Below, piece by piece: positions 5,018 to 43,209 of a DNA stretch of 46,414 bases. Where the stretch lies: the IMG/VR virus record IMGVR_UViG_3300048997_000259, positions 1-46,414 of that record; one strand, written 5' to 3'. Origin of the DNA: a virus. The notes under the pieces were generated by a model. The model made no database searches, had not been told where the DNA came from, and saw only the letters and a program-made list of their open reading frames with translations. The position numbers and the translations under genes were made by a program. How positions within the stretch are numbered: the stretch's first letter is position 1; each line of letters opens with the position of its first letter.

Positions 5018-5623
5018 GTGCCCCACGTCTTTGAATTCGAGCAGGTGATGAGGCTCTTCCGGGCGATGAAGGAAGAGTCGGAAACCGACTGGCTGATGGC
5101 GGTGGTCGCTTTCAATCACTGTCTCAGGCCGCGAGAAGTCGTAGGCGGTGAGTGCGTCCGTACTGACCGGAAAACAGGCAAGATAACCCGCTGGCAGCAT
5201 CCCGGGATCACGACTCAGAGCATTGTGGGGATTCGCATAAGCCTGAAGAGGACCAAAGGATCCGAGCCGGTGGATGACGAGCTATTGGAATCAGTGAATC
5301 CACTCCTAAACGAGCGCCAGGCGGTGCTTGAATTGTGTTTGAAAACCCCGCGAAATCAAAAGCTCTTTCCTATGACCGTCCGGACCTTTCAGCGCCGGAT
5401 GAACTACTACGGAAAGCTCGCCGGTCTGCCTGAAAAGTGGGCGCATCCGCACACCTTGAAGCACTCGATCATTGACCATTTGCGCTTATCTGGCATGAGG
5501 TTAGAGGAACTCCAAGACCGCAGCGGACACAAGAGCCTGGATTCACTTCGCGTGTACATGCACCCCAAGAAAGTCGAGACCGACCGCGCGGTACACACGG
5601 CCCTCCAGAGGGCGCACGTTTGA
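5018..5623 (+). CDS. Tyrosine recombinase, catalytic domain only
   Basis: 201 aa from GTG 5018; an in-frame TGA lies shortly upstream, so no N-terminal domain is hidden. Box I is CLRPREV (R37, E40). Box II is HTLKH (about residues 145-149), with lysine where arginine is usual. Then comes SGHKSLDS with the nucleophile tyrosine in RVYMHP (about Y180). It lacks the core-binding/SAM-like domain of full integrases. It sits immediately before the terminase genes, unlike the integrase at 35175. It may resolve genome multimers or invert a segment; the role is inferred. Confidence 0.8.
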   Translation: MPHVFEFEQVMRLFRAMKEESETDWLMAVVAFNHCLRPREVVGGECVRTDRKTGKITRWQHPGITTQSIVGIRISLKRTKGSEPVDDELLESVNPLLNERQAVLELCLKTPRNQKLFPMTVRTFQRRMNYYGKLAGLPEKWAHPHTLKHSIIDHLRLSGMRLEELQDRSGHKSLDSLRVYMHPKKVETDRAVHTALQRAHV

Positions 5624-27335: not shown

Positions 27336-29010
27336 GAAAATCTTAACTTTTGCGATTCTCGTCTTCGCTTCCGCTTGCGCCTTCGGGGTGGACTGCAACA
27401 CGGCGGGCTACGCTTGCATGAACCTCGACAGCCAGATCAAAGGCTCACGCCTGCCGAGCTGGGGTGTGGACTCCGGATCGTCGAACGCTTACGCCATTAC
27501 CACGGTCGCGCCTCTCGGCCCAGCACTGAAGACCGGGTCGGTGTTCATGTTCAAGGCCACCCATGCGAATACCAGCGCGTCAACGCTTGTCGTGGATGGC
27601 GGATCGACAATTGCGATCAAAAAGAATGTTTCCTCGGCGCTGACTGGTGGCGAGATTGCGCTGAATGGCGTCACAGAAGTTGTTTACGATGGCACGAACT
27701 TTCAGTGCATGAGCTGCGGAAGCAGCACGGGAACAGTCACTAGCATTGCCACGACTTCTCCGATCACAGGTGGCACGATCACCACGACAGGAACAATTTC
27801 CTGTCCAACTTGTGCAATCGGCCCCGGAAGCTCAAGCGCAAACCATCTGGCGAAGTTTTCAGGCACTGATGGACTCACCCTTGCCGATGGGGGAGCGATA
27901 CCAACGGGAACGGTTACCAGCGTTGCCGAAACCGCACCCAGTGGACTTCTGTCGGTATCCGGCAGCCCGATCACAACTTCTGGAACCTTCGCTTGGAGCT
28001 GGGCTGGAACATCTGGAGGCATCTCATATTTCTCCAGCACTTCAGCCTTGGCTTCGTCCGCGCTGCTTACTAATCATGCGCTCGTTGTCGGCGGTGGAAC
28101 TGGCGCAGCGCCTTCAGTAGTGAGCAGCTTAGGTACGACAACTACAGTGCTCCATGGCAACGCTTCTGCAAATCCATCATTCGGAGCGGTGAGCCTGACC
28201 GCAGATGTCAGCGGAATTCTTCCTGTCGCCAATGGTGGAAACGGAACGGCTACACCAACGCTTTCGCCAGGTGCCAACGTGACCCTTGCTGGAACCTGGC
28301 CGAATTACACCATTAATGCAGCAACGGGTTCAGGTGGAAGTGGCACATCGACAGCACGTCCGAACACTCGCCGCTGGGCTTATGGAGCGCAAACAGGGGA
28401 CAATAATTCTGGCAATTGGTCTGGCACGGAATCCTCAAACGTTGGCTTTAGTGGATCTCTCGGCAGTGCCGCGACAGGGACTGCCACTTGTGGTCCCACT
28501 AGAACAGGGAGCACCGCAGCAACAATAGGAAGCGTGGCCGGTGAAGGTAATAGTGCCGCCCCGATTCGCAACTGGAATTACGGCAAAAATCCGATGTTTC
28601 AGGCGCAAGTCGCGCTGAACAATACAAGCAACGTTCGCCAATGGCTTGTTTTCACCGATCAGACCATTGCCACCGTTGGCGCGTCGGCAACTCCCGCAGG
28701 AAATTCCACCGGATTTCGCTATGACACAGGAGCAGGTGATACCCACTGGCAATGCGGGAGTTCAGCATCAGGTTCTTGGACGTTTGTCGATACCGGAGTC
28801 ACGCCGGATACTTCTTGCCATACCTTTGAAGTGTTGGTCACGTCGGGAACGAACGCAGTCTGCAAAATTGACGGCGGCTCGGCGACGACCGTTTCATCAA
28901 ACCTCCCAGCGAACAGCACAATGCTGGGCTGGCAAGACGAGATTACAGCGCTGGCTGCTTCAATAGTCTCGATTAAATGGTCGTATCACTACTGGGAACA
29001 AGATCCGTAG
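27316..29010 (+). CDS. Large Gly/Ser/Thr-rich tail fibre protein with signal-like N-terminus
   Basis: 564 aa. I choose ATG 27316 (MRFTQLKKILTFAILVFASA), which gives a signal peptide ending ACA-FG. The body (residues 30-350) is low-complexity beta sequence with recurrent GTVTSxA and LVVGGGTGAAPS-like segments (for example TGTVTSIATTSP and TGTVTSVAETAP), typical of phage fibres. The last ~170 residues look like a lectin-type tip (NWSGTESSNVGFSG, DTGAGDTHWQCGSS). A Sec signal on a tail fibre is unusual. It converges with the desaturase-like gene, overlapping 38 bases. Confidence 0.7.
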   Translation: MRFTQLKKILTFAILVFASACAFGVDCNTAGYACMNLDSQIKGSRLPSWGVDSGSSNAYAITTVAPLGPALKTGSVFMFKATHANTSASTLVVDGGSTIAIKKNVSSALTGGEIALNGVTEVVYDGTNFQCMSCGSSTGTVTSIATTSPITGGTITTTGTISCPTCAIGPGSSSANHLAKFSGTDGLTLADGGAIPTGTVTSVAETAPSGLLSVSGSPITTSGTFAWSWAGTSGGISYFSSTSALASSALLTNHALVVGGGTGAAPSVVSSLGTTTTVLHGNASANPSFGAVSLTADVSGILPVANGGNGTATPTLSPGANVTLAGTWPNYTINAATGSGGSGTSTARPNTRRWAYGAQTGDNNSGNWSGTESSNVGFSGSLGSAATGTATCGPTRTGSTAATIGSVAGEGNSAAPIRNWNYGKNPMFQAQVALNNTSNVRQWLVFTDQTIATVGASATPAGNSTGFRYDTGAGDTHWQCGSSASGSWTFVDTGVTPDTSCHTFEVLVTSGTNAVCKIDGGSATTVSSNLPANSTMLGWQDEITALAASIVSIKWSYHYWEQDP

Positions 29011-29788
29011 CGCGTGGCAGTTTGGCTGGTTTAATCATTCGCGCCCATTCTAAGAACGGACCTAGCAAAGCTTCGCTGACCGTGGTGATCTTTTTATCAG
29101 AAAGCCCGCAAGTAATCGATCTCTTGTCGGGAGCGAAGTAAGTTCCGAAGATCACGTCCCACATCGGAAAGAATGCTGCGAAGTTTTTATTGAAGTGCTC
29201 CGGTGAATTGGAATGGTGAATGCGGTGAGTTCGCGGGTTTGCCAAAATTCGATTCAGCGGGCCGAGGCTCAGATTTGAATTCAGGTGGATGAAGTAGCCC
29301 CAAGCGTAAGGCAATGCCGACAACAGAATCGCTGCCGCGACGGGAGGCCGGAACAGTATCAGCATCGGTGCGTCAATGAAAATCACTTCGAGCGGCTTTT
29401 CCAGCCAGTGATGGCGGGTGGCTGTCGTTACATTCATGTGTTCGTCGCTGTGATGCAGCATGTGTTCCGCCCACAGCCATCGGGAGTGATGCTGAAAGCG
29501 GTGAAGCCAGTAATAAAAGAAGTCGTGCACGGCAAGCCAGAGCGGGGCTGTGGCCAGCAAGCCGAGAGATGGGAAATTCATCAGCCCGTAAATGTGCAAG
29601 CGATTCAGCAGCGCATAGACTCCCAGAACTAAGGGAACGGCTAGAAGTGCCTCGGCCACAAAATAGAACACCGTGCAGGTGGCATTGAAGAGCAGATTCT
29701 TGGCGGTGTTCGATTCATCGGCTGGTGACATTCCCTCGATGGTGAAACCGACGAAGTAGGCGACAAGAGTTTGGATCAGTGTGCTCAC
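28973..29788 (-). CDS. Membrane fatty acid hydroxylase / sterol desaturase family enzyme
   Basis: 271 aa, GTG start at 29788. The eight-histidine di-iron pattern is complete: HDFFYYWLHRFQHH (H88, H96, H100, H101), HMLHH (H109, H112, H113), and THRIHH (H188, H191, H192). Hydrophobic spans lie around residues 36-60, 72-90 and 145-170. The family hydroxylates or desaturates lipid acyl chains or sterol-like substrates at the membrane, using O2. Here it is read against the late genes, in an operon with two tiny membrane peptides and a secreted protein: probable lysogenic-conversion cargo. The substrate is unknown. Confidence 0.85.
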   Translation of the reverse strand: MSTLIQTLVAYFVGFTIEGMSPADESNTAKNLLFNATCTVFYFVAEALLAVPLVLGVYALLNRLHIYGLMNFPSLGLLATAPLWLAVHDFFYYWLHRFQHHSRWLWAEHMLHHSDEHMNVTTATRHHWLEKPLEVIFIDAPMLILFRPPVAAAILLSALPYAWGYFIHLNSNLSLGPLNRILANPRTHRIHHSNSPEHFNKNFAAFFPMWDVIFGTYFAPDKRSITCGLSDKKITTVSEALLGPFLEWARMIKPAKLPRATDLVPSSDTTI

Positions 29789-34478: not shown

Positions 34479-34664
34479 ATGCCGACCTATATCGTTCAAA
34501 AGAAAGTCGTCGCCGATTCGGTGCAGGAGGCGCTCACCAAAGAGCGCGAAACCCACGTCACCAGCGTTTTCCCCGATAAGGATGGTGACGACAAAAGGCT
34601 GTCCGACGTCATCGGATTTAAGCACATTCCCACCAAGCCCCGCTATCGCCTGCCGCTGAAGTAA
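34479..34664 (+). CDS. Small protein related to the 17365-17544 gene product
   Basis: 61 aa, MPTYIVQKKVVADSVQEALTK, aligning with the protein encoded at 17365-17544 over the first 29 residues. Its stop codon lies at the left edge of the 334-bp transposon-like insertion; the TAA is followed by the duplicated AAATTCCC. Before the insertion the gene would have faced the integrase leader. Function unknown. Confidence 0.65.
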   Translation: MPTYIVQKKVVADSVQEALTKERETHVTSVFPDKDGDDKRLSDVIGFKHIPTKPRYRLPLK

Positions 34665-34670
34665 ATTCCC
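34663..34670. repeat. Target-site duplication, left (AAATTCCC)
   Basis: Eight bases immediately outside the left inverted repeat, identical to 35005-35012 immediately outside the right one. Direct flanking repeats of this type are made when a transposon inserts into staggered target DNA. Confidence 0.75.
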
Positions 34671-34690
34671 GGTAGTGGGTCAGTTTGAAT
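34671..34690 (+). repeat. Left terminal inverted repeat
   Basis: 20 bases, perfect reverse complement of 34985-35004. Matching stops on the next inner base pair, so the repeat is exactly bounded. Confidence 0.85.
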
Positions 34691-34718
34691 CGTGGGTACT
34701 TTTCGCCGCGCTGGGAAC

Positions 34719-34967
34719 ATGTCATCATTAGGCATGCCGTATCGTTGGGTACTTCCCTGCAAAAGCTGCCAAACGGAATTCACGGTTCGCCAAGTCGATG
34801 AGCAACACCCTCGCGAAATCGTCAGCAACGTACATGACGAAAAGGTAGAGCCGCCGAAGCCCCCGCTCCAACATCCTACTCAGATATGCCCGCACTGCAA
34901 GCATAAGGCCCGCTATACCCGCCACGATCAGGAATTCAGGAGAAGTCAGGACAGTACCCATGCCTAA
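34719..34967 (+). CDS. Zinc-ribbon ORF inside the transposon-like element
   Basis: 82 aa from ATG 34719 (a GTG at 34692 gives 91 aa). It has CKSC (about residues 14-17) and CPHC (about 60-63), a four-cysteine ribbon typical of nucleic-acid-binding domains, with a Pro-rich linker (KPPLQHPTQ). Entirely inside the element, ending 18 bases before the right repeat. It could be a passenger gene or a reduced regulator of transposition. An opposite-strand frame is less protein-like. Confidence 0.55.
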   Translation: MSSLGMPYRWVLPCKSCQTEFTVRQVDEQHPREIVSNVHDEKVEPPKPPLQHPTQICPHCKHKARYTRHDQEFRRSQDSTHA

Positions 34968-34984
34968 ACGCTCTTACAAGAAAA

Positions 34985-35004
34985 ATTCAAACTGACCCAC
35001 TACC
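34985..35004 (-). repeat. Right terminal inverted repeat
   Basis: 20 bases, exact reverse complement of the left end of the element at 34671-34690. Confidence 0.85.
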
Positions 35005-35012
35005 AAATTCCC
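35005..35012. repeat. Target-site duplication, right (AAATTCCC)
   Basis: Identical to the eight bases at 34663-34670 outside the left inverted repeat. Confidence 0.75.
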
Positions 35013-35174: not shown

Positions 35175-36206
35175 ATGGAGCTTATGCCTACAGCTGCGCT
35201 CACGCAGTTGCCCTTCAAGTCCGCATGTGAAGCCTGGTTAGAATCCCGCCGCCCTTATATCTCGGCCAAGACTCATCACGAATACCAACTGAACATCAAC
35301 ACTCTTTCCGCATTTTTCGGGGAGCTGCGTTTGCAGGAGATTGATGGCGATCTGCTCAGAAAGTATCAGCGCATGCGCCAGTTGAAGTGCGGGCCGTTCG
35401 CCATCAATCACGAATGCGGATTGATCTGCCAGATCAGAAAAAAGCGGATGGGGATGCCGATCGAAGATTATCAGCCGCTGCCATTGCCCAAGGAAAAAGT
35501 TGGGCGCGTGCTCAGTGACGAAGAGCGCGAACGATTGCTGCGGGTTGCGGGTTCGAATCCAAATTGGGAAGCCGCATATTTGTTCGCCATGATCTCGGTC
35601 AATACCGGCGCCGGTCCGAAAGAAGTCGCCAGCCTGCGATTCAAAGACGTGGACTGGCAGCGTGAGGAAATTCACATTCCTCCGCACGGCGCGAAGAACG
35701 TTACCCGTATTCGGCCCATCCCGCTCAACTCGGAGGCCATGAAGGGAATCAAGGCGGCTGTTCAGAGAGCGAAGAGACTTGGCTCGACCGAACCGCAGCA
35801 CCACATTTTCCCCTTTCGCAATATTCATCTTTCATGTTTCGATCCCGCCAAGCACCAGACGACATTCAAGACAGCTTGGAAAAAACTCACGAAAGCCGCT
35901 CTGCTCGGGGATTTACAGATGTACGATCTTCGCCGCACCGTAGCGACAGACATGCTGGAAAATCCTGAAATCAGTGATGAGACGATCGAAGAAATTCTCG
36001 GCCACACGCCCGGTTCGCGCACCAAAAAGCTGTACTCCTACATTCGCGTCGAAGCCCGGCGCAAAGCGGTGAATGCACTTTCACCGAAAAAACCAGCCAA
36101 GCAGCGCAAAAATTCTCCCAAGAAAAAGCCCTCGATTTCCACAAACCGCGATGAGCTGGTTTCGCAGCTCTCGACTCTTCTGGCGAAGCTCCTAAAAGGC
36201 GCGTGA
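35175..36206 (+). CDS. int: Tyrosine-family integrase
   Basis: 343 aa from ATG 35175 with CGGAGAG upstream; the frame is open back to 35013 but lacks a better start. An N-terminal core-binding domain (YISAKTHHEYQLNINTLSAF) precedes the catalytic domain. Box I reads NTGAGPKEVASL, with Gly where Arg is usual. Box II is YDLRRT, with Tyr for the first His. GHTPGSRTKKLYSY carries the nucleophile tyrosine. The Lys-rich C-terminus may bind DNA. The attP candidate lies 370 bases downstream. The motif changes suggest a divergent subfamily and not necessarily loss of activity. Confidence 0.85.
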   Translation: MELMPTAALTQLPFKSACEAWLESRRPYISAKTHHEYQLNINTLSAFFGELRLQEIDGDLLRKYQRMRQLKCGPFAINHECGLICQIRKKRMGMPIEDYQPLPLPKEKVGRVLSDEERERLLRVAGSNPNWEAAYLFAMISVNTGAGPKEVASLRFKDVDWQREEIHIPPHGAKNVTRIRPIPLNSEAMKGIKAAVQRAKRLGSTEPQHHIFPFRNIHLSCFDPAKHQTTFKTAWKKLTKAALLGDLQMYDLRRTVATDMLENPEISDETIEEILGHTPGSRTKKLYSYIRVEARRKAVNALSPKKPAKQRKNSPKKKPSISTNRDELVSQLSTLLAKLLKGA

Positions 36207-39036: not shown

Positions 39037-40785
39037 ATGACAAAACTTCCGTTTCCAGAGCGCGTGCTGCATCAGCACATCGCCACGCTGGGCAAGACCG
39101 GCGCCGGAAAATCTTCCGCCATGCGCGTCATTGCCGAGCACCTACTCGACAAGAATCGGCGGGTCGCCATCATCGATCCGAAAGGCGACTGGTGGGGCTT
39201 GAAATCTTCTGCCGACGGCAAGAGCGCCGGTTATCCGGTCATCACCTTTGGCAATTTCAAAGAGGAACGCGCGACTGATGTTCCGATCAATGAGCAATCA
39301 GGCAAGCACGTTGCCGAATTGATTGCCACCGGGAATCGTCCGTGCGTCCTCGGATTTCGCGGCTGGATGCCTGGGCAGCTCACGCGCTTCTGGCTTGATT
39401 TCGCGCCGACTCTTTTCAACGCCAACGAAGGCGAACTGTACGTCATCATCGACGAGGTTCACAACTTCGCGCCCAAGGGCAAGATCATGGACCCGCAAGC
39501 AGGGAAGTGCTTGCACTGGACCAATCGCATCATGAGCGAAGGCCGCGGGCTGGGCCTGACGTTCTTCATTGCTTCGCAGCGCCCGCAGAAGGTCCACAAC
39601 GACACGCTGGACAATTGCGAAACCCTGATCGCGATGCGAGTCACCCATCCGCGATCGCGCGACGCCGCCGAAGAATGGATCAACGCGAAAGGCGATCCCA
39701 AGTTCGAGAAGGAAGTTCTCGGCTCGCTCGCGCAACTGAAACGCGGTGAGGCTTGGGTGTGGTCACCGGAAAACGGATTCGGTCCGGAGCGCGTGCAGTT
39801 CCCGATGTTTCAGACCTTCGATTCTTTCGCGCCGCCGCAAGTTCAAAAGAAAGTCAGTCAGGCGGGCTGGGCGGAAGTGGATCTAGACCAGGTCAAACAG
39901 AAACTTGCGACCGTGATCGCAGAGGCAAAGGCGAATGACCCGAAAGAGCTGAAGGCAGAAGTCTTCCGACTGAGGCAGGAGCTGGCCAAGAAGCCGGCGT
40001 CGGTCACATCGGCGCCGATTGTTCAGGAGAAAGAAAAGATCGTCGAAGTGTCGGTGTTCACCGACAACGACAAGCAATCTCTCGCTGCACTGCAAAGAGA
40101 GTTGTCGGAGATTACGGGCCTCGCCCATGATGTTGCTTCAGTCCAGGCCATCATTCAAAGGGCGATTGACACAGTTGCAAAGCAGCGATTCCTTACTGCG
40201 CCCCCGCGATTCACAAAGCCGATTCCAGCGCCGCAGAATATACGCCACCAGCCAGGGCGAGTTGAATCACACGTCGAATCGAACGGTGACCTCTCTCGCC
40301 CGCAACTCAAGTTGATCGAAGCCCTGGGCGAAGCGGAAGCCATTGGACGCAAAGAAATCTCGCGCTCCTGGCTGGCCTTCATCGCTGGCGTTTCGCCGCT
40401 ATCGTCCGGCTTTGAAAAAAACGTGAGCACTTTAAGTGCGAAGGGAATGCTGCGTTATCCCGCGTCCGGTTGCGTTGCGCTCACTGACGTTGGCCGCACA
40501 CTCGTGCCGCCGATCTCGACGCCGCTGACTACCGAGTCATTGCTCGATCGCGTGTGTCGCTTGTTATCCGGGCCGCAAGAAACATTGCTGCGCGTTCTGC
40601 ATCGTGAATACCCGAACTCTTTGACCAGGTCGGAACTCGCGCGCCACGCCAATGTGAGCGAGTTATCGAGCGGATTCGAAAAGAACGTCTCGACGCTTTC
40701 CGGTCGCGAGCTGGTGGAGTATCCCGGAAAGGGTGAAGTAGTTTGCGCCGATTGGTTGTTCATCGGTGACGAGGTGGCTGCATGA
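39037..40785 (+). CDS. HerA/FtsK-like DNA translocase ATPase
   Basis: 582 aa. Walker A GKTGAGKSS (residues 19-27), a DPKGDWWG signature, Walker B VIIDEVHNF (about 134-142) and the sensor region FIASQRPQKVHND (about 175-187) mark a HerA-type (VirB4/FtsK superfamily) hexameric ATPase. The C-terminal third has two winged-helix-like repeats, each with the phrase SSGFEKNVSTLS (near 455 and 545). Such ATPases move dsDNA. Its presence before a methyltransferase and a Rep gene suggests a role in replication or segregation rather than packaging. Coupled to the next gene. Confidence 0.85.
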   Translation: MTKLPFPERVLHQHIATLGKTGAGKSSAMRVIAEHLLDKNRRVAIIDPKGDWWGLKSSADGKSAGYPVITFGNFKEERATDVPINEQSGKHVAELIATGNRPCVLGFRGWMPGQLTRFWLDFAPTLFNANEGELYVIIDEVHNFAPKGKIMDPQAGKCLHWTNRIMSEGRGLGLTFFIASQRPQKVHNDTLDNCETLIAMRVTHPRSRDAAEEWINAKGDPKFEKEVLGSLAQLKRGEAWVWSPENGFGPERVQFPMFQTFDSFAPPQVQKKVSQAGWAEVDLDQVKQKLATVIAEAKANDPKELKAEVFRLRQELAKKPASVTSAPIVQEKEKIVEVSVFTDNDKQSLAALQRELSEITGLAHDVASVQAIIQRAIDTVAKQRFLTAPPRFTKPIPAPQNIRHQPGRVESHVESNGDLSRPQLKLIEALGEAEAIGRKEISRSWLAFIAGVSPLSSGFEKNVSTLSAKGMLRYPASGCVALTDVGRTLVPPISTPLTTESLLDRVCRLLSGPQETLLRVLHREYPNSLTRSELARHANVSELSSGFEKNVSTLSGRELVEYPGKGEVVCADWLFIGDEVAA

Positions 40786-42128: not shown

Positions 42129-42135
42129 CTTGATA
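42129..42135 (+). other. Candidate rolling-circle nick site CTTGATA
   Basis: CTTGATA is the conserved nick core of pC194/pUB110-type double-strand origins, cut after CTTG in those plasmids. Here it overlaps the TTG start of the Rep gene, in the context CTTTACTTGATACC. Seven bases is a weak signal, but the matching Rep family and the nearby hairpin add weight. Confidence 0.4.
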
Positions 42136-43209
42136 CCAGTGCATAAATCGACAGATTTCAACTCGGCATCGTCGTCCTCCGCTCAACCATTTTTGAATAA
42201 GGCGGTTTCACTTCTAGATCGTTACGTCTTGCAGGGGAAATTAGTGGAAGCTCTTGAAAACACGGAGTACCACAAGCATTTGGCGGTGAAGGTTTACAAC
42301 TGCCACAAACGCTTTCGAAAGAAGCGTTGCGACCAGAATCACGACTGGGCTGTGGTTGACGAGAAAAACAAGCCTTGCTCGCTGCGAATTTGCCCGCACT
42401 GTGCATCTCGTCGTTCGCGAATTGTGGCGGCGCGGACGCAGAAGCTTCTTTTTGGGAAAACTGGTTTGCGTTATGCCGTGTTGGCGGAGCGCAATTCGGA
42501 AAATTTGCAAGCGGGTGTGCGCTCGCTATGGAGAGCCTGGACAAGTCTTCGTCGTTCGGTGTGCTGGAAGGCGAAGGTGAAGGGATGCATTGTGGCGCTA
42601 GAGGTCACCTATAACCCGAAGCGAAAGACTTGGCATCCCCATTTGAACGTGCTGATGGAGGGGGAATATTTTCCGTTTGAGGAGTTGAACAAGGCGTGGA
42701 TTAAGGCGACAGAGGGGAACGGGCGGACCAGCCGGATTCAAGCTGCAGACCATGAAACCGTTTTCGAGTTGCTGAAGTACACGCTGAAAGTGGCCGCGCG
42801 CGACAAAGACACCGGGGAATTTGAGTTGATCTTCGATGAGCCGGAAGCTATTGACGAATTTTTGTCAGCCGTCCATGGGAGCCGCCTGGTGCGGAGTTAT
42901 GGCACCTTGCACGGTTTAAAACTCGAAGATGAAGACGAGGAAAAAGCCCGCGAAAAATGCCCGGATTGTGGTTCGACTTGTGTGATCGATTTGGGCGGGG
43001 TGACCCACAATCAGCTGAGTTTCGATTTTGAAAAACAAACTTTCCGCGTGGTGCGTGCCCCTACGGAAGCCGATGTCGGCTTGCATCTCGTCCGAGATAA
43101 CCACTCGCGCCGGGTTTCAACTAATCCCGAATCGATTGCGTTGGCAGTGGAAGCGCGGCGCGCGATGAGGTCTTACGAAAAAGCGGTCGCACTGAAATTC
43201 GCAGCTTGA
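42130..43209 (+). CDS. Plasmid-type rolling-circle replication initiator (Rep_1-like HUH)
   Basis: 359 aa from TTG 42130 with a GAGG upstream. Near residue 81 is the Rep_1 zinc segment SLRICPHCASRRSR. The metal-binding HUH motif is WHPHLNVL (about 167-174). The catalytic tyrosine lies in LLKYTLKVA (about 213-221). A C-terminal CPDCGSTC (about 277) adds a second finger. The enzyme nicks one strand at a double-strand origin, staying 5'-linked. In a tailed phage it implies rolling-circle or sigma replication started by a plasmid-like initiator. Motifs are in standard order. Confidence 0.85.
   Translation: MIPVHKSTDFNSASSSSAQPFLNKAVSLLDRYVLQGKLVEALENTEYHKHLAVKVYNCHKRFRKKRCDQNHDWAVVDEKNKPCSLRICPHCASRRSRIVAARTQKLLFGKTGLRYAVLAERNSENLQAGVRSLWRAWTSLRRSVCWKAKVKGCIVALEVTYNPKRKTWHPHLNVLMEGEYFPFEELNKAWIKATEGNGRTSRIQAADHETVFELLKYTLKVAARDKDTGEFELIFDEPEAIDEFLSAVHGSRLVRSYGTLHGLKLEDEDEEKAREKCPDCGSTCVIDLGGVTHNQLSFDFEKQTFRVVRAPTEADVGLHLVRDNHSRRVSTNPESIALAVEARRAMRSYEKAVALKFAA

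Follow-up and report, generated by a model that had tools for sequence, protein, structure and literature searches.

A probable IS1-family mobile insertion cassette of 334 bp carrying a zinc-ribbon reading frame beside a phage integrase gene

The window analyzed here is the whole of a 46,414-base virus record that carries the genes of a tailed temperate phage, including terminase, capsid, and tyrosine integrase genes. A short insert separates a small phage gene from the integrase gene. The features of this locus are listed below by position in the window; the repeats, the duplication, and the reading frames were read from the sequence, and the class of the unit was assigned from its ends, its relatives, and its slot anatomy.

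34479 to 34664, plus strand: host-phage gene of 61 amino acids (aa), no family; its stop codon marks the insertion point
34663 to 34670, no strand: left copy of the 8-bp target-site duplication, AAATTCCC; overlaps the TAA of the 34479-34664 gene
34671 to 35004, plus strand: non-autonomous IS1-family unit of 334 bp (mobile insertion cassette, or passenger-bearing MITE)
34671 to 34690, plus strand: left terminal inverted repeat, GGTAGTGGGTCAGTTTGAAT
34719 to 34967, plus strand: 82-aa zinc-ribbon open reading frame (ORF), the slot (passenger) gene upstream of KGG, placed by the slot and overlap pattern of other elements
34960 to 34995, plus strand: 5' stump of a KGG ("histone H1") gene, MPKRSYKKNSN and a stop, with a KGG-like start; its TGA lies inside the right inverted repeat
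34985 to 35004, minus strand: right terminal inverted repeat, ATTCAAACTGACCCACTACC
35005 to 35012, no strand: right copy of the 8-bp target-site duplication, AAATTCCC, an exact match to the left copy
35175 to 36206, plus strand: phage tyrosine integrase (PF00589, E 4e-18), to the right of the insertion; likely start ATG 35175

The left copy of the duplication starts at base 2 of the TAA of the 61-aa gene, so the stop codon is kept and the gene is intact. The two ends of the unit match over all 20 nt (20/20), and they form the sole inverted repeat of 12 nt or more between 34600 and 35100. The zinc-ribbon ORF runs from an ATG at 34719 to a TAA at 34965-34967, or from a GTG at 34692 if read as 91 aa, and the 82-aa form has CxxC pairs at residues 14 to 17 and 57 to 60. 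The initial annotation had described a 334-bp unit with perfect 20-bp inverted ends, an exact 8-bp flanking duplication, and one small ORF with two CxxC pairs, and each of these points was confirmed. Its statement that the unit has no transposase also held, as the list of ORFs within the 334 bp includes none.

Three other regions of the phage record drew our attention. A second tyrosine recombinase gene lies at 5018-5623 (PF00589, E 3e-14). A fatty acid hydroxylase-like gene, an unusual passenger for a phage, is on the minus strand at 28973-29788 (PF04116, E 4e-29). A Rep_1 plasmid-type replication protein (42130-43209, E 4e-14) and a HerA-like ATPase (39037-40785) are possible phage-plasmid features.

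The unit is present as one copy in the 46-kb record, and its ends recur widely outside it. We found the exact 20-bp end in 28 stretches of virus contigs and its first 18 bp in at least 118 stretches of genome contigs, whose sources include Acidobacteria, Alphaproteobacteria, Nitrospirae, Planctomycetes, Chloroflexi, Actinobacteria, and other groups. The exact 20-mer occurred in 10 of 396 genomes of one phylum and in 3 of 398 of another; the reversed end pattern, used as a control, had no match in these 794 genomes. The initial annotation had taken a lack of other copies anywhere as evidence against its reading. The ends are clearly not confined to this phage, but the search for the unit's interior returned no copy other than this one.

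We defined a complete unit as a pair of inward-facing ends, with at most 6 mismatches in 18, flanked by an exact 8-bp duplication. Loci were collected by their ends or by the transposase (some were added through the transposase), and the proportions given here and below describe this sample only. We counted 82 complete units, 78 of them distinct, at 81 loci, each unit with its exact 8-bp duplication; no unit was found when the right flank was moved by 20 to 100 bp (five shifts). Their lengths span 33 bp to 4.4 kb. The smallest in the set, two 33-bp units (L087:3959-3991 and L118:1761-1793), are simply two ends that abut, and each unit is flanked by an exact 8-bp duplication of its own. One 514-bp unit (L236), also with an exact 8-bp duplication, holds an 89-aa ORF and a C-terminal stump of the transposase described below, and it is an independent parallel to the phage unit. 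A Rhodobacteraceae contig has an 878-bp unit with the same ends and one dCTP-deaminase-like gene (L079:1103-1980), and its flanking 8-mers match at 6 of 8 positions.

Most of the distinct complete units (51 of 78) encode one IS1-family transposase of about 277 aa whose catalytic core can be aligned, and transposase-bearing relatives with the same 20-bp ends as the phage unit exist (L025 and L116). The description of the insert as a non-autonomous, passenger-bearing transposon derivative inside a phage is thus borne out by the recurring ends and by these full-length relatives. A representative transposase scored 28.4 bits against the Pfam IS1 model PF03400, above the cutoff of 24.1. It also matched the NCBIfam IS1 model with an E value of 1.9e-13, yet below that model's curated cutoff; the match covers positions 43 to 168 of 199 and leaves 1 to 42 unmatched. 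Plasmid records label relatives of this protein "IS1 family transposase."

A KGG gene accompanies the transposase in 47 of these 51 units. The KGG protein is small and basic, mostly 70 to 95 aa, has a conserved KGG motif, and is annotated as "histone H1" in Mesorhizobium (L151). In about two-thirds of loci, the KGG start lies 56 to 94 bp from the end, usually at about 65 bp, and in a second group of loci it lies at about 258 to 357 bp. The gap in the second group is mostly filled by one small ORF of roughly 60 to 95 aa, whose stop commonly overlaps the KGG start by 1, 4, or 8 nt (for example, in L151 and L152). This slot ORF is a minority feature, with most elements having none, and it varies between elements. 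Four loci have, like the phage unit, cysteine-pair proteins in the slot (L126, L070, L152, and L195), and an alignment of the cysteine-pair slot ORFs gave no convincing homology beyond the cysteines. The typical full-length order is an end, an optional small slot gene, KGG, variable cargo, the IS1-type transposase, and the other end.

The phage unit retains part of this order. The truncated frame at 34960-34995, a feature absent from the initial annotation, begins MPKRSYKK, and KGG proteins of other elements begin MPKRSSKK (L004 and L092) or MPKRSRK (L007 and L015). The MPKRS start was found in nine KGG genes; outside KGG genes it occurs once in 4.0 million strand-bases of the sequences collected, and the chance expectation for a 30-nt stretch is about 7e-6. 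The stump's ATG lies 289 bp from the end of the unit, and its frame shares 8 nt with the zinc-ribbon ORF; both values fall within the second, slot-ORF group of loci. This is most simply explained by a deletion that began near the ninth KGG codon and reached the far end.

Searches with the zinc-ribbon ORF found no homologue in virus contigs, phages, nine element-bearing genomes, or 396 genomes of one phylum, and the plasmid search gave one weak, chance-like match. The ORF matched none of the IS1 zinc-finger or transposase models; for the IS1 zinc finger and for IS1595 (PF12760), there was no match even at an E value of ≤1. It does show weak similarity to zinc-ribbon families and to a Lar-like anti-restriction PHROG (E 0.006). 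A single-sequence structure prediction, of low confidence (pLDDT 61), placed four short strands with a pair around each CxxC. A frame of comparable length, 77 aa, is open on the opposite strand and resembles the ORF in codon-position GC. Because no homologue is detectable, the case for a real gene rests on the position of the ORF, its overlap with KGG, and its CxxC pairs, and we infer that it could be translated.

We also looked for the insertion site without the unit. Relatives reached through the integrase or through a LuxR-type HTH gene provided no base-level empty site. In one distant relative (L150), the HTH gene is 56% identical and there is no such insert, but the genes that follow differ, so this locus does not count as a base-level empty site. 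An exact search for the joined flank and a blastn search against named phages each returned no match.

We consider it very probable that the unit arose by internal deletion from a cargo-carrying IS1-family element and was moved beside the integrase by a transposase acting in trans. The ends, the duplication, the autonomous relatives, the slot position, and the KGG stump are all directly observed. An internal deletion would have taken out the transposase, the remainder of KGG, and whatever other cargo there was, leaving one end, the zinc-ribbon slot gene, and about the first eight KGG codons joined directly to the other end, and it presumably preceded the insertion. An IS1-family transposase, from the host or another element, would then have acted on the two intact ends, and insertion next to the phage integrase would have duplicated 8 bp of target. 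Counting against this origin, we found no full-length parent bearing this zinc-ribbon ORF and no homologue of it, the opposite strand has its own 77-aa open frame, and neither an empty site nor another copy within the record turned up. The reading explains the insert without a new mechanism and would illustrate how such an element decays to the carrier of one small gene.

The initial annotation had left two options for the protein, a true cargo gene or the retained DNA-binding end of a transposase. The first is supported by the position of the ORF in the small-cargo slot of other elements, overlapping the KGG start. As a passenger, the ORF would have no part in transposition, and it is likely, in our judgment, to be residual cargo that is not essential to the phage. 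The same origin could also have led to a cargo under selection, a reading that differs only in the present role of the ORF: the zinc-ribbon protein would be produced and would benefit the phage or lysogen, for instance as a regulator that binds DNA or RNA, and the unit would be kept for it. Nucleic acids and proteins are common binding partners of small zinc ribbons. The intact ORF with both CxxC pairs, the weak similarity to zinc-ribbon families and the Lar-like PHROG, and the passenger-only units elsewhere (the dCTP-deaminase-like gene of L079 and the 89-aa ORF beside the transposase stump of L236) are consistent with such a role. However, the ORF has no homologue and no clear ribosome site, and units without coding content (33 to 152 bp) also move, so retention needs no selection. 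We regard selected cargo as unlikely, though it deserves some weight. In a broader proposal, the relatives would be an undescribed IS1 group with a working module made up of KGG and an interchangeable slot gene, whose product is sometimes a zinc ribbon; the module would regulate or protect the element, and the slot and the ends could break away as a cassette that takes small genes into phages. We hold this to be improbable.

The second option, that the zinc-ribbon ORF is the retained DNA-binding N terminus of a transposase, is unsupported. In its favor, an N-terminal zinc finger is part of classical IS1 InsA and is missing from the transposase tested here (the unmatched positions 1 to 42). The slot ORFs of L070 and L126 also match Zn_ribbon_IS1595 weakly, below threshold. 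The phage ORF itself has no such match even at an E value of ≤1. In the relatives, the slot ORF precedes KGG and is remote from the transposase gene, and the majority of elements lack a slot ORF. The KGG stump contradicts this option directly, since the phage ORF runs into a KGG start rather than into transposase sequence, and we give it very little credence. A fortuitous combination of inverted and direct repeats, which the single copy in the record might suggest, is refuted to the point of being negligible by the occurrence of the 20-bp end in many genomes, paired and with exact 8-bp duplications, against the empty reversed control.

Non-autonomous internal-deletion derivatives of insertion sequences (ISs) are called MITEs if they have no coding sequence and mobile insertion cassettes if they have one (PMC5444012). 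Such cassettes are considered products of internal deletion that a cognate transposase activates (PMC5444012, PMC3129680), and some non-autonomous IS derivatives can be activated in this way (PMC3129680). The phage unit has a putative passenger coding sequence between IS ends, no transposase, and a KGG stump joined to the right end; it is an IS1-family mobile insertion cassette by published usage. MIC231 and its relatives, as well as passenger-bearing MITEs, likewise have IS ends around a passenger gene and no transposase (PMC5444012, PMC3129680), but MIC231 belongs to IS231, whereas the phage unit traces to an element of the IS1 type and still has the stump of a core gene. A further mark of MITEs is many copies of one unit per genome; the count here, in the virus record, is one. 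The IS1 family is characterized by duplications of 8 to 9 bp and inverted repeats of about 20 bp, and the unit has 8 bp exactly and 20/20. An autonomous IS encodes its own transposase; with no transposase ORF in its 334 bp, the unit is a derivative and not an autonomous IS.

Compared with single-ORF members of the IS1 family, the full-length relatives share a transposase that passes PF03400, ends of about 20 bp beginning with GG, and the 8-bp duplication. They differ in that the complete relatives collected here are mostly 2 to 4.4 kb, with variable cargo beside a KGG gene that is nearly constant; moreover, the tested transposase lacks the zinc-finger part of the IS1 model, and the phage unit has no transposase. 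ISs with extra passenger genes are known as transporter ISs (PMC3129680). Those described with the IS1595 family likewise carry genes unrelated to transposition (PMC3129680 and the work it cites), but the transposase of the phage unit's relatives is of the IS1 type. Membership in IS1595 was rejected: the tested transposase matched IS1 and IS240 models only, and the phage ORF did not match PF12760. Open papers held nothing on IS1 elements with such passengers (ISfinder was outside the scope of the search), and the parent group, IS1-type with a near-constant KGG and a variable slot, may be new. It is a broad group, spread over many bacterial phyla and found also in virus contigs, and the 18-bp end, the 8-bp duplication, and the KGG gene provide a simple signature for finding its members.

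The cargo of the larger units includes candidate defense genes. A protein joining XRE and peptidase parts is encoded in 17 of the 61 distinct complete units above 900 bp, and the two such proteins scanned both matched the PADLOC model PD-Lambda-2_B (E 1e-46 and 1e-43). Twelve of the 17 units also hold a common partner of about 150 to 180 aa, 3 of these 12 with a HigB-like toxin as well. PD-lambda-2 is an experimentally shown three-part anti-phage system composed of a HigB-like protein, an XRE-peptidase, and an antitoxin-related protein (PMC9519451). Three complete IS1-type units (L008, L126, and L202) combine a HigB-like toxin, an XRE-peptidase (similar to PD-Lambda-2_B where scanned), and a third protein of about 155 aa, and this cargo appears to be a PD-lambda-2-like defense module, in which the third protein may correspond to the antitoxin-related part. 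Since some elements carry such a module, anti-phage genes may pass between bacteria and phages on a small IS.

Two further observations concern individual loci. A 4.4-kb IS1-type unit encodes a 494-aa ATPase (L061:1964-3445) that matches PADLOC HEC-04 (E 2e-52) as well as AAA/Toprim defense proteins. The 321-kb genome of Brevundimonas phage vB_BpoS-Gurke (ON529850.1) has an unannotated relative of the IS1-type transposase at 174791-175666 (L154:4001-4876), with 33% identity.
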